Positions 24,795 to 32,846 of a stretch of 64,000 nt of DNA are shown here, piece by piece. The stretch is from contig NZ_CP135529.1 of the NCBI RefSeq assembly GCF_032401055.1, positions 4,214,501 to 4,278,500 on the forward strand, in the 5' to 3' direction. The DNA comes from Tardiphaga sp. 709. GTDB lineage: Bacteria; Pseudomonadota; Alphaproteobacteria; Rhizobiales; Xanthobacteraceae. Position 1 is the first letter of the stretch; each line of letters begins with the position of its first letter. The position numbers and the translations under genes are program-made. The notes beneath the pieces are model-generated. The model did not search any database and was not told the origin of the DNA. It worked only from the letters and a program-made list of their open reading frames with translations.

Positions 24795-25063
24795 GATTCT
24801 CGCGTAGCATCAGCGGCGTCAGGATACCGCTTTAGCGACGCGCCAACTATCGAAGGTTGCGTCGTTGCTTGCGTGCCCTGCTCTGGCTGCGTGGTTTTAT
24901 CCGGACCTTAAGTACGTTCGCGGCCGCCGGGAACTCGGGCGCCGCGCAAAACAGTTTGGCGACATCTCGCACATACGATTGCACCACCTCGGCTGAAAGC
25001 CGGTGATCGGGTCATTTCAACGACGGTCCGATGGTTTGAGCAAAGTAATTGCGAGTTGCGTTT

Positions 25064-27697
25064 ATGACGTTGGTGCATGTCGACCAGAGTGATGCCGCGA
25101 GGACGCTCCTCGCCGGGCTGGAGCAGGCCATCGATGCTGTCGTGATGATCGACAGCAAGAATAGCGTGACCCATTTCAACGCCGCCGCCGAACGGCTGTG
25201 GGGCTATGAGCGCGATGAAGTGCTCGGGCGAAATATCAGCTTTTTGGTGCCGATGGCGATCAGGTCGCAGCATGACGGATACATCGCCGCGAACCGCGCG
25301 ACCGGCGTCAATCGCATCGTCGGGCACAGCCGTGAGGTGAAAATCGAACGCAAGGACGGCAGCGAGATCTGGGGATCGTTGTCGATGTCGCGGGTCGAGG
25401 TGAATGGCGAGATCACCTATATGGGCTTCGTCCGCGATGTGACGGAGGAGGTGAAGCGCAGGGAAGAAGTTATCCCGCTGGCTCTCGTGGTCGGCAAGAC
25501 GAAACGCGCTATCTACATTGCGGGTCGCGATGCACGGATCAGCTATGTCAACGGCGCCTTCACCGGCATGTTCGGCTACTCGCTGGATGAGGCGAGGGGA
25601 CTGATCCCGGAGGAATTCCTCGTCGGCGCATATACCAGCCAGGCGACGCTCGCCTATCTGGACCAGCAGATCAGAACGGAAGGTTCTGCTGAAGACGAAA
25701 TTCTCCTTTACGACAAAGCGGGCAACGAGGTCTGGGTCTCGGTTGCCTTGAACGCGATTCACGACGCGGATGGAAAACTCCAGCACCTCGTCGCATTGAT
25801 GACCGATATCACCGAGAGCAAGCAGCTTCAGTCGCTGCAGCATCACATTCTCGAAGCGCTGGCCGGTGAGCAGCCGCTGCTCGACGTGATGGACAATCTT
25901 TGCCGGAAGGTGGAGCAGATCGCGCCCGATGTCGTCTGTTCGGTGCTACATGTCGATTCCGTGGGATTGCTGCATCCTTTGGGAGGACCAAGCCTTCCGG
26001 CAGGTTATGCGCAGGCGCTGGACGGCATTGCCATCGGACCGGATGTAGGCTCCTGCGGGACCGCGGCCTTTCGCGGTGAGCCTGTTCTGGTCACCGATAT
26101 CGAAAACGATCCTCTATGGCTGCCATACAACAGCGCGCCGCTGGCTTCCGGTCTGAAGGCCTGTTGGTCGATGCCGATCAAGACCAAGGATGGGCGCGTC
26201 ATCGGCACGTTCGCATTCTACTTCAGGGAATGTCGCAGACCCAGCCGCTTGCATCACGGTATCGTCGATGCCTGTGTTCATCTCGCCGCGGTCGCCATCG
26301 AGCGTGAGGAAGCGCGTAACGAAATCTCGCGGCTTGCTTATTTCGATGCGCTCACCGGTCTGCCGAACCGGACCCATATGCGCCAGTTGATGGAGCGCGC
26401 CGTCGCGGAATGCACCGCAGATGCGCAGATGGCGCTGATATTTCTTGACCTGGATCACTTCAAGGACGTCAACGATACGCTGGGGCATGCTGTCGGCGAT
26501 GACTTGCTGGTCGCCGTCACACAGCGGCTTCATCAGCATATCCGACCCGGCGATATCCTGAGTCGTCAGGGCGGCGATGAATTCATCATCCTGATGCCGA
26601 ACTGCGTCGCGGCAGATGCATCCCGCATCGCCGGCCGGCTCACCGAGGCACTGTCGGTTCCGCTGCAGCTAGGCAACAATCAGGTGCCGATTTCCGCCAG
26701 CGCCGGCATTAGCATGTTTCCGGACAATGCCCGCGATCTCGATAGTCTGCTGAAATATGCCGATGCGGCAATGTACAAGGCCAAGCAGGCCGGCCGCTCC
26801 ACGCATCGGTTTTTCAGCAATGACATGGACCGCGTGAACGAGGAGCGCCTTCGTCTCAGCACCGCTTTGCGCCACGCGCTTGCACAAGGCGGTCTGCGGT
26901 TGCACTACCAGCCGCAGATTCGCGCGAGCAACGGGGATCTCTACGGCGTCGAAGCATTGGCGCGCTGGCATGATCCCGTATTGGGCGATGTGTCACCGGC
27001 GAAGTTCATTCCGCTCGCGGAGGAATGCGGGCTCATCGAGCAGATCGGTGTCTGGTCGCTGCGCGAGGCGTGCAGGCAGATTGCGGCGTGGCAAAAGGCA
27101 GGGCTCGATGTGCCTTGCGTCTCGGTCAACCTGTCGCCGATCAATTTTCTGAATCCGGGATTGCCGGCGTTGATTTCCGACATCATCGCGGAAAACGGGC
27201 TGGCGCCGAACAGGCTGATGCTCGAAGTCACCGAGGGCGCGGTGATGAGCGAACATACGACCGCGATCGAGATCATGAAGCAGATCCGCGCGGCCGGCAT
27301 CGGCTTGTCGATGGATGATTTCGGCACGGGTTATTCGAGCTTGAGCCGTCTGGCGCATTTGCCGGTGCGCGAGCTGAAGATCGATCGCAGCTTCATGCGC
27401 GGTATCGAGACCGAGGTCTGTGCTCTGGCGATCACCACCGCCATCGTGTGCGTCGGGCAGAGTCTCAACATGACGGTCGTGGCCGAAGGCGTCGAGACCG
27501 AAGAGCAGCGCAGGATTCTCGCCGGGCTGGGCTGTGACGTCATTCAGGGTTTCCTGTATTCGCCCGCATTGTCCGCATTCGATTTCGAAGCCTGGCTGGT
27601 GGCCCGCCATGCCGAACGCTGGGCGGCGCTGGTCGACGAGCGCCGGGCCGATGCTTCGCAAGAGGACATACGGCCGGGTGCGCTTGCGGTCATGTAA
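25064..27697 (+). CDS. PAS-PAS-GAF-GGDEF-EAL protein, copy 1 (c-di-GMP turnover)
   Basis: 877 residues from the ATG at 25064; a TTG at 25049 is a less likely start. Order: PAS (about 12-130), PAS (about 145-255), GAF (about 275-420), GGDEF (about 425-590), EAL (about 610-870). The cyclase motif is intact (GGDEF at 503-507; metal aspartates in FLDLDHFKDVND) and so is the phosphodiesterase (EAL at 630-632, DDFGTGYSSL, LKIDRSFM, AEGVETEEQ). It could therefore both make and degrade c-di-GMP, with the three sensory domains choosing. No TM helix: cytoplasmic. The following gene is a full-length paralogue. A 9-bp inverted repeat separates them. Confidence 0.93.
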   Translation: MTLVHVDQSDAARTLLAGLEQAIDAVVMIDSKNSVTHFNAAAERLWGYERDEVLGRNISFLVPMAIRSQHDGYIAANRATGVNRIVGHSREVKIERKDGSEIWGSLSMSRVEVNGEITYMGFVRDVTEEVKRREEVIPLALVVGKTKRAIYIAGRDARISYVNGAFTGMFGYSLDEARGLIPEEFLVGAYTSQATLAYLDQQIRTEGSAEDEILLYDKAGNEVWVSVALNAIHDADGKLQHLVALMTDITESKQLQSLQHHILEALAGEQPLLDVMDNLCRKVEQIAPDVVCSVLHVDSVGLLHPLGGPSLPAGYAQALDGIAIGPDVGSCGTAAFRGEPVLVTDIENDPLWLPYNSAPLASGLKACWSMPIKTKDGRVIGTFAFYFRECRRPSRLHHGIVDACVHLAAVAIEREEARNEISRLAYFDALTGLPNRTHMRQLMERAVAECTADAQMALIFLDLDHFKDVNDTLGHAVGDDLLVAVTQRLHQHIRPGDILSRQGGDEFIILMPNCVAADASRIAGRLTEALSVPLQLGNNQVPISASAGISMFPDNARDLDSLLKYADAAMYKAKQAGRSTHRFFSNDMDRVNEERLRLSTALRHALAQGGLRLHYQPQIRASNGDLYGVEALARWHDPVLGDVSPAKFIPLAEECGLIEQIGVWSLREACRQIAAWQKAGLDVPCVSVNLSPINFLNPGLPALISDIIAENGLAPNRLMLEVTEGAVMSEHTTAIEIMKQIRAAGIGLSMDDFGTGYSSLSRLAHLPVRELKIDRSFMRGIETEVCALAITTAIVCVGQSLNMTVVAEGVETEEQRRILAGLGCDVIQGFLYSPALSAFDFEAWLVARHAERWAALVDERRADASQEDIRPGALAVM

Positions 27698-27739: not shown

Positions 27740-27887
27740 ATCCGGTTTTCCGGCCCCTCGAGATGAGGTCGAACGAACTTCTTAGCTACTGGAGTTCAAA
27801 TACAGTCGTACCTGCGAATGACATTGCCGTTGTAACGAAGACAGCCGCCATCGTGCTCACGCGGCTCCCGTGATCGAAGGTTGTTTC

Positions 27888-30521
27888 ATGCCTACAAGCC
27901 CTGTCGGCCAGCCCAGTGAAGCTGCAAAGGCGCTGTTCTCGGCGTTCGAACAGGCAGTCGATCCTGTCGTTATCACGGGCGTCGACAATCAGATCCGGCA
28001 CTTCAATGCCGCGGCCGAGCGCATGTGGGGATATCACCGCGACGAAGTGGTCGGCCGGCAGATCAGCGTCCTCGTGCCGCCCGACGTGCGCGAACATCTC
28101 GATGGAGCGATCGCGGCAAAGTCTGCCATGGATCCCCGGACTGCGGTCAAGGGCCGCCGCGAGTTCAGGCTCAGCCGCAAGGACGGGAGCGAGGCCTGGG
28201 GCGCGTTCTCGATCTCCCGCGTCGATTATGCCGGCAAGACGCTCTACATCAACTTCATCCGCGACGTGACGGACGATGTCCGCGACCGCGAGCAAAATAC
28301 GCTGATGGCACTCGTTGCCGAAAAGACCGACCGTGTCGTGATGGTCTCCAAGCGCGACATGACCATCGTCTATGTCAACGACGCTTTTACGGAGCTGTTC
28401 GGATACACCCTCGCGGAAGCGATGGGCAAACACCCCCGGGATCTGCTGACCGGAGAATATACCGACAACGAAACGCTGGAGCGGTTTCACGCGCAGATCG
28501 ATGCCGAAGGACACGGGCAAGAGGATATCCTTGTCTACGACAAGGACGGTCACGAGATCTGGATCTCAAGCACGGTCAACGCAGGCCGCAATGAAGCCGG
28601 TGAGGTCGAGCACCTCGTCGCGGTGCTCGCCGACATCACCGAGAGCAAACAGATCAATTCGCTGCAGCATCATGTGCTGGAGAATCTCGCCAATGACATG
28701 CCGGTCGTGGATGTGATCGGCGATCTCTGCCACCGCGTCGAAGCCATCGCGCCTGATATCGTCTCGTCGGTGCTGCATGTGGACGCGGACGGTCGGCTCC
28801 ATCCACTCGGCGGCCCCAGTCTTCCGCCGGCCTTCGCGCCCATTATTGACGGTATTGCCATCGGTCCCGATGTCGGGTCCTGCGGCGCTGCGGCCTTTCT
28901 CGGCCACGCGGTGCTGGCCACCGATATCGCCACCGATCCGCGGTGGCTGCCCTATAATACGCTGCCACTGGAAGCCGGCTTGCGCGCCTGCTGGTCGACG
29001 CCGATCAAGGCGCGGGATGGTCGCGTCATCGGTGCCTTTGCCTTCTATTTCCATGAAATGCGCGGCCCGACGCGCTGGCACCAGACTATCGTCGACGCCT
29101 GTGTGCATCTGTGCGCACTGGCCATTGAACGGCACGAGGCCCGCAGCGAAATCGCGCGTCTGGCCTATTTCGATGCGCTGACCGGCCTGCCGAACCGCGC
29201 GCAACTGCGCCAGATCCTGACGGGGCTGATCGACAAGAGCAAACCACGGGACCGCATTGCCGTGATGTTCCTCGATATCGATCACTTCAAGGACGTCAAC
29301 GACACGCTCGGTCATTCCATCGGCGATGAGTTGCTGGTCACGGTCACGCAACGACTGTGCAGGCAGATCCGGCCGGCCGATACGCTGAGCCGGCAGGGCG
29401 GCGACGAATTCGTTATTGTGCTGCCGAATTGCGATGTTGAAGGCGCCGCCTTGATCGCTAGCCGCCTGCTCGAGACGCTGCTGCCGCCCATGCAACTCGG
29501 CGCCAAGCTGGTGCCGGTATCCGCCAGTATCGGCGTCAGCATCTATCCCGACAATGCCGGCGATATCGACGGTCTGCTCAAACATGCCGATGCGGCGATG
29601 TATCAGGCCAAGCAGGCCGGTCGCTCGACCTATCGCTTCTTCAGTGCGGAGATGAACCGCCTCAGCGAGGAGCGACTCGCCTTCAGTACGGCGCTGCGCA
29701 ATGCCATCGTGCAGGATGCGCTGCGGCTTCACTATCAGCCGCAGGTGCGCGCTGACGGTCGCCTTTACGGTGTCGAGGCGCTGGCCCGCTGGTCCGATCC
29801 GGTGCTCGGCGAAGTGCCGCCGTCGAAATTCATCCCGCTCGCGGAAGAATACGGGCTGATCGAGCTGATCGGCACCTGGTCGCTGCGCGAAGCATGCCGG
29901 CAGGTCGCGGCCTGGCGCAAAAATGGCGTCGATGTACCCAGCGTCTCGGTCAATCTGTCGCCGATCAACTTCCAGAATGGCGATCTCGCCACGCTGGTCG
30001 GCGAGGTGATCGCCGAAAATGGCCTGTCGCCGGACATGCTGATGCTGGAGGTCACCGAAGGCGTGGTGATGAGCGAGCATTCGACCGCCGTCGAGACCAT
30101 GGAGAAAATTCGCAAGTCCGGCGTGCAGCTATCGATGGATGATTTCGGTACCGGCTATTCCAGCCTCAGCCGTCTCGCGCATCTGCCGATTCGTGAGTTG
30201 AAGATCGATCGCAGCTTTATGCGTGGCCTTGAAAGCGAGGCGAGCGCGCTGGCGATTACGCGCGCCATCATCCGCGTCGGCCAGAGCCTCGACATGATCG
30301 TGGTCGCCGAGGGCGTGGAGACCGATGGGCAGCGTCGGATTCTCACCGAGCTCGGCTGTGACGTTATCCAGGGCTTCGTCTATTCGCCTGCGCTGCCGGT
30401 GCCGGATTTCGAGCTCTGGCTCGCGAGTCACGAAGCGTCGCGTGCCGCCACGACCCTGAGCGATATGCGGCGTCAGGCGGAGCGGACGCGCGGCGCCTTG
30501 CCCGTCAGGCGAATCCCTTAA
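27888..30521 (+). CDS. PAS-PAS-GAF-GGDEF-EAL protein, copy 2 (c-di-GMP turnover)
   Basis: 877 residues from the ATG at 27888 (AAGG upstream), the same length as copy 1 and colinear with it throughout. GGDEF at residues 504-508 and EAL at 630-632 are intact, as are FLDIDHFKDVND, DDFGTGYSSL and AEGVETDGQ. The two copies differ mostly in the first PAS domain and C-terminal tail, which suggests a tandem duplication followed by sensory change. Its stop is three bases from the stop of the convergent ethylene-receptor-like kinase. Cytoplasmic, bifunctional by motif. Confidence 0.93.
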   Translation: MPTSPVGQPSEAAKALFSAFEQAVDPVVITGVDNQIRHFNAAAERMWGYHRDEVVGRQISVLVPPDVREHLDGAIAAKSAMDPRTAVKGRREFRLSRKDGSEAWGAFSISRVDYAGKTLYINFIRDVTDDVRDREQNTLMALVAEKTDRVVMVSKRDMTIVYVNDAFTELFGYTLAEAMGKHPRDLLTGEYTDNETLERFHAQIDAEGHGQEDILVYDKDGHEIWISSTVNAGRNEAGEVEHLVAVLADITESKQINSLQHHVLENLANDMPVVDVIGDLCHRVEAIAPDIVSSVLHVDADGRLHPLGGPSLPPAFAPIIDGIAIGPDVGSCGAAAFLGHAVLATDIATDPRWLPYNTLPLEAGLRACWSTPIKARDGRVIGAFAFYFHEMRGPTRWHQTIVDACVHLCALAIERHEARSEIARLAYFDALTGLPNRAQLRQILTGLIDKSKPRDRIAVMFLDIDHFKDVNDTLGHSIGDELLVTVTQRLCRQIRPADTLSRQGGDEFVIVLPNCDVEGAALIASRLLETLLPPMQLGAKLVPVSASIGVSIYPDNAGDIDGLLKHADAAMYQAKQAGRSTYRFFSAEMNRLSEERLAFSTALRNAIVQDALRLHYQPQVRADGRLYGVEALARWSDPVLGEVPPSKFIPLAEEYGLIELIGTWSLREACRQVAAWRKNGVDVPSVSVNLSPINFQNGDLATLVGEVIAENGLSPDMLMLEVTEGVVMSEHSTAVETMEKIRKSGVQLSMDDFGTGYSSLSRLAHLPIRELKIDRSFMRGLESEASALAITRAIIRVGQSLDMIVVAEGVETDGQRRILTELGCDVIQGFVYSPALPVPDFELWLASHEASRAATTLSDMRRQAERTRGALPVRRIP

Positions 30522-30524
30522 TCC

Positions 30525-32123
30525 TCACCGCTTGTCGAGCATCTCGCGCACCTTGCCGCCGAGCGCTGCTTGCGTGATCGGCTTTTGCAGCAGCGACACG
30601 CCGGGATCGAGCCGGCCCTGATGCACGATGGCGTTGCGCGAATAGCCTGTCATGAACAACACTTTCAGTTTCGGCTGCCGCTTCTGCATCTCGTCGGCCA
30701 GCAGTCGCCCGTTCATGCCGGGCATCACGATATCGGTCAGCAGCAGGTCGAACGGTTCGGGGTCAGCGGCAAAATCCGCCAGCGCTGCGTCGGCATTGCC
30801 GGCCTCGCGGACCTGATAGTTGAGACCTTCCAGCGTCTCGACCAGGTAGGACCGCACATCCGGATCGTCCTCCACGATCATCACAGTCTCGTTGCCGTTG
30901 CTGCCGACGATGCGCCTCTCGATCTCGGTCGATTGCTCCGTATGCTGTCTGCTGCGCGGCAGATAGACCTTGATGGTCGTGCCTTCGCCGACCTCGCTAT
31001 AGATCTTCACATGGCCGCCGGATTGCTTGACGAAACCGTAGACCTGACTCAGGCCGAGACCGGTGCCCTGTCCGGGCTCCTTGGTGGTGAAGAACGGATC
31101 GAAGGCGCGCTCCTGCACGTCCTTTGGCATGCCCGGGCCGGTATCCGTCACCGAGATCAGGACATACTGCCCGATGACGACATCGGAATTCTGCAGGGCG
31201 TAGATCTCGTCGATAAAAGCGTTGCTGGTTTCGATCGTCAATTTGCCCGAGCCGGCCATAGCGTCGCGTGCATTGACCACGAGATTGAGGATGGCGGCTT
31301 CCATCTGGCTCGGATCGACCTCGACCTGCCACAGCCCGGCGCCGCCGACGATTTCGAGATCGATGTTCTCGCTCAATGTGCGCTGGAAGAAGTCCGACAT
31401 GCCGTGGAGCGATCCATTGACATTGATGGTCTTCGGGTCGAGCGGCTGCTTGCGTGCGAAGGCGAGCAGGCGCTGCGTCAGCACCACGGCGCGCTGCGCG
31501 CCGCCGGCCGCGCTGGCAATGACGCGCCTGAGGCGATCGCGCGACGATTCCGTCCAGGTCGAGATGCTGTGCTCGGCGATTTCGAGATTGCCGATGATGA
31601 TGGTCAGCAGATTGTTGAAGTCATGAGCGACACCGCCGGTGAGGTGGCCGATCGCTTCCATCTTGTGCGTATGGCGCAGCATGTCCTCGGCTTCGCGCCG
31701 GTGCCGGCCTTCCTCGATCAGCGCCAGTTCGGTTTCGCGCAATTGCGCAGGCGAGGGGATCGCCAGTAGTCGTGGCAGCAGTGGCCAGAGAATCGCTGCG
31801 GTGACGACCGAGGCGATGGCGGTGATCGCCTTGAGGATTCCTTCGGCGCCATAGGCCGGAACCCACAGCGTGTAGATCGACATCACATGAGTCAGGCCGC
31901 AGGCCATGATGAAGAGCGCGAAGGCCCAGAAGATCCAGCCGAACTCCACATCGCGGCGCTTCCAGACGAAGATTGTGAGGACGATGGGGATCGAGAAATA
32001 GGCCGCGGCGATCAGTGCGTCCGAGCCGACGTGAAGCCAGATCAGGCCGGGATCCCACAGCAGGCAAATGCCGTGCGGGGCAAACATGGAACTATCGAGA
32101 AAGTTCTTGAGTGATGCCCACAT
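30525..32123 (-). CDS. Ethylene-receptor-like hybrid histidine kinase
   Basis: 532 residues. Three N-terminal TM helices (about 30-120) match the ethylene-binding domain of plant ETR1: D35, Y42, I45, P46, I72, C75 and H79 correspond to ETR1 D25, Y32, I35, P36, I62, C65 and H69 with the same spacing at every position; C75 and H79 would bind the copper cofactor. After a helical linker come the histidine kinase (H167 in [10 protein letters not shown]-box [12 protein letters not shown]-boxes DTGPGM and [11 protein letters not shown]) and a C-terminal receiver domain with phospho-acceptor D464 in [12 protein letters not shown]. It lacks the GAF domain of plant receptors. The upstream gene on the same strand is a lone receiver protein. 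Ligand is inferred from residue conservation; cyanobacterial homologues bind ethylene. Confidence 0.88.
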
Positions 32124-32212: not shown

Positions 32213-32626
32213 TTATCTCCCGCCGAATGCGCTGCGGGGATTTGCGAGTTCGGTGAGGGCGCCGATGATCTGGTGCTGGCGATAGGGTTTGGCAATGAAG
32301 CGGCCGCCATCCGGCAGGTCGCGTTCGCCTATCCTGAAGTGGCCTGATGTCGCGATGATGCGAATGGGCGGCCAGCGATTGGCGACCGCATGGGCGAGCT
32401 TGAGCCCGTTCATCGAGCCGGGCATGTCGATATCGGTAAAGATGATGCGGATATCGTTGCGCGCTTCGAGCACGCGGATCGCGGCGTCAGCGTCCGGCGC
32501 CTCGATCACCCGGAAACCGGCGTCCTCGATCATCTCGACCGCAAACATGCGCAGCAGCACGTCGTCCTCGACGACCAGGACGGTGGCGGGGAGGGTGGCG
32601 TTGTTTACGGCAGCGTCTTGGGCCAT
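32213..32626 (-). CDS. Single-domain response regulator (CheY-like)
   Basis: 137 residues from the ATG at 32626 (AAGG upstream), consisting of one receiver domain: acidic pair in VLVVEDDVLLRMF, phospho-acceptor D in IIFTDIDMPGSMNG, and lysine in RFIAKPYR. No output domain. It lies 89 bases upstream of the ethylene-receptor-like kinase on the same strand and is a likely phosphotransfer partner of it. The longer open frame to 32713 adds a low-complexity leader without a ribosome site. Confidence 0.88.
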   Translation of the reverse strand: MAQDAAVNNATLPATVLVVEDDVLLRMFAVEMIEDAGFRVIEAPDADAAIRVLEARNDIRIIFTDIDMPGSMNGLKLAHAVANRWPPIRIIATSGHFRIGERDLPDGGRFIAKPYRQHQIIGALTELANPRSAFGGR

Positions 32627-32846
32627 GGGATTTGAACCTTGATCGCCGGTTCCATGGGCCGCAGGGCCGGGATGGTTCGGGTCGAAAGCGTCGGTCAGTC
32701 TAAACGTGATCAATCCAATACGAATATAGGTCGCGTAAAAACTGTTTTGGTTCGCATGTCTTTGCTAAGCGAGCTGCTCGTGCTTTCGTTCCGCCGCCTG
32801 CGAAAAAAAATCGTGAAGATGACGGAAATCCGCGGCGGCCGCCGGG

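Follow-up and report, generated by a model that had tools for sequence, protein, structure and literature searches.

AzoEtr1 of Azospirillum brasilense is a protein of 525 amino acids with a sensor-PAS-kinase architecture, and the gene of a 135-amino-acid regulator lies downstream and overlaps its end (PMC11819568). AzoEtr1 binds ethylene, as shown in yeast and in A. brasilense; it influences biofilm and the colonisation of roots, and disrupting it mimics the action of ethylene (PMC11819568). An inverse-agonist model has been proposed for AzoEtr1 and SynEtr1. In the plant receptor ETR1, Asp25, Cys65 and His69 form the copper site (PMC12643061), and seven residues are required for ethylene binding (PMC11819568). 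Putative ethylene receptors occur in many plant-associated proteobacteria (PMC11819568). Here we analysed a receptor-like gene of Tardiphaga sp. 709 against these systems; "the window" refers to the whole stretch of DNA analysed, 64,000 nucleotides long.

The receptor gene and its copper site

An ethylene-receptor-like hybrid histidine kinase of 532 amino acids with an ATG start (P0001) is encoded at 30525..32123 on the minus strand. The open reading frame fills this span exactly, as the first-pass annotation had it, but the strand needed correcting to minus; the plus-strand frame is broken by stops. The ethylene-binding domain (PF25487, ETR1_N) covers residues 27-122 (31758..32045, minus strand, as for all parts of this gene), where Pfam, the structural model and the seven residues coincide. 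Its E-value was 2.6e-38 (130.6 bits vs. a cut-off of 27), a match far beyond chance, and the profile check that had been proposed against the ethylene-binding domain family thus gave a significant match. A predicted signalling helix (residues 125-161, 31641..31751; model and Pfam) links the membrane domain to the kinase, and the ETR1_N and HisKA matches are 37 residues apart. Further on are the HisKA dimerisation/phosphoacceptor domain (residues 160-226, 31446..31646), with the phospho-His H167 in the motif HDFNN, the HATPase_c domain (residues 270-391, 30951..31316), with the N, G1, F and G2 box motifs all there, and a fused receiver (Response_reg, residues 414-522, 30558..30884), whose motifs were also found (18 letters of protein sequence, and LLQKP). 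HisKA, HATPase_c and Response_reg each exceeded the Pfam cut-off. The Pfam scan gave no GAF or PAS domain at E ≤ 1 in the 532-amino-acid protein, and the description of a sensor joined directly to an HDFNN-type kinase and a receiver, without GAF, was therefore accurate. The GC content of the gene (0.615; GC3 0.81) resembles that of the window (0.617) and of the neighbouring genes (GC3 0.77-0.83). Two other NCBIfam assignments were rejected: the CckA cell-cycle kinase (NF046020 and NF046026), at 336.7 and 273.1 bits vs. a cut-off of 1000 and confined to residues 141-143 to 530, and the PRK13557 histidine kinase subfamily (NF010076), at 410.2 bits vs. a cut-off of 631 and covering residues 141-530 only.

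The sensor domain contains D35, Y42, I45, P46, I72, C75 and H79, that is, all of the seven residues at ETR1 spacing that had been recognised in the first-pass annotation. The ETR1 counterparts of Y42, I45, P46 and I72 are Y32, I35, P36 and I62. For the other three residues, the offset of 10 between the window receptor and ETR1 fits the published Asp25, Cys65 and His69 (PMC12643061). The model of residues 1-165, built from 43 sequences, had a mean pLDDT of 84.7 and contained long helices at 25-55, 62-87 and 91-120, in line with the three transmembrane helices expected from the letters, plus a further helix at 125-161. Relatives of the sensor domain in the PDB were found neither by sequence (one search, E ≤ 10) nor by fold (E ≤ 0.001). 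Three oxidase subunits that appeared in a second sequence search (E 0.36-0.51) are at chance level and are not sensor relatives. Because no solved structure of the domain was found, compact bacterial or phage versions are attractive structure targets.

The copper site was scored in 129 family ORFs, duplicates included: all seven residues were present in 114, the Cys in 124 and the His in 125. Seven bacterial ETR1_N ORFs from the family or order of the window gene (L014, L016-L021) lack the Cys and/or the His metal ligand, and membership of PF25487 alone is consequently not equivalent to ethylene sensing. Such ORFs would be the precedent for reading the window protein as a decayed receptor that senses nothing and has a constitutive kinase. 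This is very improbable, as the window copy keeps every residue, has a strong family match and is 96-97% identical over its full length to three same-genus orthologues (L022, L123, L127).

The I..CG..H motif defined a set of 149 distinct sensor domains in which to compare the link between sensor and kinase, and 98 of these have a recognisable downstream H-box. Where sensor and kinase are directly linked, the copper Cys and the phospho-His are 92 residues apart in 23 domains (including the window receptor, other Nitrobacteraceae and Novosphingobium), 106 in 19 and 120 in one. Ten domains, nine from Bradyrhizobium and one from Hyphomicrobiales, showed a distance of 105, and seven domains, one of them HDFNN-type, showed 72, 75, 97, 101, 111 or 136. 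Considering the 53 HDFNN-type receptors with a distance of up to 136, 42 were at 92, 106 or 120, which are two-heptad steps, while ten at 105 and one at 72 were off the 14-residue steps. The 42 of 53 fit a continuous coiled-coil signalling helix that would connect the kinase with the third membrane helix, with the distances being shared by descent and therefore not independent counts. Elsewhere in the alphaproteobacteria, a fused receiver is often lacking from the kinase and a regulator gene follows close behind; a downstream regulator was present beside 20 of the 129 ORFs. At Bradyrhizobium loci, the receiver is mostly fused to the kinase.

Gene neighbourhood and occurrence of the receptor

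A stand-alone receiver protein, 166 amino acids as called (32213..32713, minus strand), is encoded 89 bp upstream of the receptor on the same strand, and a thioesterase gene lies upstream of it in turn. It matches Response_reg (5.9e-15) with no second domain, and it probably starts at codon 30, giving 137 amino acids. This receiver might be the dedicated output of the receptor in an obligate two-gene system like AzoEtr1/AzoRR, and its gene does precede the receptor gene in the same order and strand, with a gap of 41-89 bp, in 11 of the 11 receptor-bearing genomes of the genus. We consider an obligate pair doubtful, because the receiver orthologue is also found beside the same thioesterase gene in five of the seven receptor-less genomes (G002, G006, G007, G014 and G016), and because in three empty receptor sites (L236, L237 and L239), which retain the regulator and the flanking genes, 63-157 bp of receptor-free DNA is all that precedes the next conserved gene. 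Concerning the other two receptor-less genomes, the orthologue was not found in G003, and G004 breaks off at a contig edge. Being kept in the five genomes, the upstream regulator need not be the output of the receptor; it is a candidate partner, not a dedicated one. The search upstream of the regulator for a sigma-54 site like that reported for Azoetr1 gave a lone minimal GG-N10-GC match, which is unconvincing.

Two tandem paralogous genes on the opposite strand converge on the receptor gene. In the domain scan, both encode PAS-GAF-GGDEF-EAL proteins with two PAS stretches (protein A, 25049..27697, and protein B, 27870..30521, both on the plus strand), and the protein B gene and the receptor gene end 3 bp from each other. 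Nine receptor loci, counting that of the window, had enough flank to be judged: both genes are present at five, a single one at one and neither at three; the three empty receptor sites lack both. In A. brasilense, c-di-GMP fell in response to ethylene (PMC11819568), which leaves a link between these GGDEF-EAL neighbours and the receptor possible, though conjectural.

The receptor gene is single copy in the source genome. Within the genus, 11 of 18 genomes contain it; among relatives the count was 21 of 101, in a sample of the class 32 of 387 and in a sample of the phylum 33 of 397, and in each survey none of the 14 control genomes gave a receptor match. At least 582 related stretches were confirmed in one collection scan, and the best 80 of these include Bradyrhizobium, Methylobacterium, Sphingomonadales, Azospirillum and cyanobacteria. 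The empty sites indicate that the receptor is present or absent as a single gene. On the tree of the flanking genes, five receptor changes are needed, at least three of them forced by well-supported branches; shuffled labels were equally low in 177 of 500 trials, so that receptor presence is not clustered on the tree. The receptor is dispensable within the genus. In the sensor-domain tree, which has few columns and many open forks, eight genus copies group together (SH-aLRT 90). With a single site common to the genus copies and these eight forming a group, repeated loss would be the simpler account.

ACC deaminase was considered as a companion trait and rejected: counted at the family cut-off, which leaves out a sub-cut-off match in G017, it was present in 6 of 11 genomes with the receptor vs. 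4 of 7 without, showing no association. A special link with plant life is not supported by these data: the receptor is absent from 7 of the 18 genus genomes and does not track ACC deaminase.

Other arrangements of the sensor domain were observed elsewhere. Two Novosphingobium plasmids typed as conjugative (L026 and L031) carry an ETR1_N kinase with an overlapping regulator, and a Cas9 gene lies less than 1 kb away on L031. Some small alphaproteobacterial genomes contain stand-alone ETR1_N genes (L138:1423-1839, L141:1426-1851 and L144:1429-1851). The next ORF overlaps each of these genes by 1-8 bp and by eye resembles a membrane sensor, and the pairs are possibly split receptors.

Stand-alone sensor proteins in phages

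Eleven viral contigs (IMG/VR) matched the sensor domain. One of them (L112) encodes a 371-amino-acid protein in which a kinase was seen by eye. The other ten (L113-L122, nine distinct proteins) encode a stand-alone sensor of 127-269 amino acids with no kinase; PF25487 was above the cut-off in nine of the nine that were scanned. Cys and His are kept in all ten; three of them also retain the copper-site Asp, which is replaced by H in four others, by N in two and by G in one. The L121 model (pLDDT 85.8) combined three long helices with another long one at the C-terminus. When this protein was used in a fold search of a viral library, one of the 245 matches listed was at E ≤ 0.001, an unnamed protein of 289 amino acids, the length of the Maribacter phage protein described below. 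A second viral-contig scan, with the phage alignment, found nothing beyond the ten contigs, and PHROGs gave no match for eight of the stand-alone proteins or for the window sensor.

Eight records of the tailed Maribacter phages Molly and Colly, from six isolates, contain a 289-amino-acid ETR1_N version, and the two proteins examined match PF25487 at 3e-16 and 1.5e-16. Searching phage records, L121 and L113 matched Maribacter phages, while L116, L120 and the sensor of the window itself gave no match as queries. The phage gene is annotated as hypothetical and lies between tail genes and an endolysin (L131:5890-6759 in Colly_1, L132:2890-3759 in Molly_1), with the tail genes before it and the annotated endolysin gene 3 bp downstream. 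The Colly_1 endolysin matches Amidase_3 (2.8e-13). Among the lysis genes listed for Molly in the phage paper there is an amidase only, with no holin, and the main text of that paper does not contain the word ethylene (PMC8776804).

In the metagenomic contigs, the sensor gene of L116 is directly after a phage tail module and that of L113 is downstream of a tail protein. For L113 and L116, the phage families among the contig neighbours were tail families; those near L114, L117 and L120 were weaker or general. The few neighbours scanned for L119, L121 and L122 contained no phage family, and the viral nature of these three thus depends on the collection's own call. No lysis family was detected among the tested neighbours of L113, L116, L119 and L120, and a neighbour of L121 gave a lysozyme match below the cut-off (E 0.005); this sub-threshold match being all that the metagenomic copies offer, the lysis link derives mainly from the Maribacter phages. 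Among the literature matches listed, a small part of the hits, there was no paper that connects ethylene receptors to phages or to holins, or lysis to the Molly phages. One could speculate, at rather long odds, that the ETR1 sensor is a portable module and not just an input to kinases, that the phage form serves as a holin or as a sensor that times lysis, with copper, ethylene or some other small ligand as the gate, and that the window receptor represents a single application of a broader membrane fold for gas/copper sensing. The phage stand-alone proteins deserve their own study.

Proposed signalling and comparison with known receptors

The window protein is probably a copper-dependent Etr1-type bacterial ethylene receptor kinase. 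This reading, made at the level of sequence, is favoured by the PF25487 match, the kinase and receiver matches with their motifs, the seven residues, the 52% identity to the A. brasilense homologue L028, the helices of the model and the two-heptad linker steps, together with the effects of AzoEtr1 disruption and of ethylene on c-di-GMP. That this bacterium may sense ethylene, as first suggested, stands as a possibility. The receptor dimer would hold Cu(I) through D35, C75 and H79, and ethylene would bind that copper. The change would travel from the third membrane helix through helix 125-161 to the kinase core, and ethylene would lower H167 autophosphorylation, as in the inverse-agonist model. 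Phosphate would pass to the fused receiver, and perhaps via a phosphotransfer protein to the upstream stand-alone receiver or to another regulator. Our best guess for the output is attachment or biofilm, possibly through c-di-GMP.

The copper-site residues alone do not fix the ligand, and the protein might keep the site for another physiological signal: CO, O2, another alkene, redox, Cu(I), or ethylene plus a second input. SynEtr1 has a light input, which comes from another part of the protein. It receives both ethylene and light (PMC11819568), and a different signal would also suit a receptor whose presence varies inside a single genus and shows no association with ACC deaminase. Even so, we regard a signal other than ethylene alone as unlikely, since all of the seven ETR1 ethylene-binding residues are kept and AzoEtr1, the closest tested bacterial homologue known to us, binds ethylene (PMC11819568).

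If the window receptor does sense ethylene, a relative of the symbionts of soybean and other legumes could read a plant hormone; close homologues are found in Bradyrhizobium strains (among the best 80 of at least 582 stretches). Ethylene limits nodulation. The short direct sensor-kinase link would also offer a simple protein in which to study kinase switching by ethylene. Ethylene sensing as such had already been foreseen for this bacterial group.

Compared with AzoEtr1, the window receptor shares the ETR1_N domain, all seven residues and an adjoining stand-alone receiver gene. The likeness was measured through L028, which stands in for the Sp7 sequence and comes from a plasmid in a different strain of A. 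brasilense; L028 is 52% identical to the window sensor over 123 amino acids, its product has 525 amino acids and a 135-amino-acid regulator overlaps its end, the lengths published for AzoEtr1. AzoEtr1 is a sensor-PAS-kinase, whereas the window protein is a sensor-kinase-receiver without PAS. The AzoEtr1 regulator gene is downstream and overlapping, whereas that of the window is upstream, 89 bp away, and also occurs without the receptor.

The Etr1-like kinases of Bradyrhizobium and other Nitrobacteraceae (L034-L068, among the best 80 of at least 582) have sensors 68-76% identical to that of the window. Six of them (L034, L040, L048, L050, L052 and L066) share its direct sensor-kinase-receiver plan and the distance of 92, but in many Nitrobacteraceae proteins extra sequence is inserted after the sensor and ahead of the kinase (19 distinct domains show a distance of 220). 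A search of 400 bp on the same strand at the L034-L068 loci gave no separate receiver gene. The cyanobacterial ETR1_N domains L097, L100, L104, L107, L110 and L111 are 56-59% identical to that of the window (among the best 80 of at least 582), in proteins that are longer (658-1147 amino acids); the comparison with SynEtr1 of Synechocystis and other cyanobacterial receptors was made through these six domains. The first-pass annotation mentioned cyanobacterial homologues; alphaproteobacterial receptors are in print too, and one of them, AzoEtr1, is an ethylene binder (PMC11819568).

Plant ETR1, whose sequences entered the analysis through the Pfam profile only, resembles the window receptor in the sensor domain, the seven residues and the kinase. 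Plant ETR1 also carries a receiver. It has a GAF domain (PMC12643061), which is absent from the window receptor, and signalling by plant receptors is largely independent of the kinase (PMC11819568). Given the likeness to AzoEtr1 and L028 and the putative receptors of many plant-associated proteobacteria, the window receptor is another member of a receptor type already known from bacteria, not a new kind of system.
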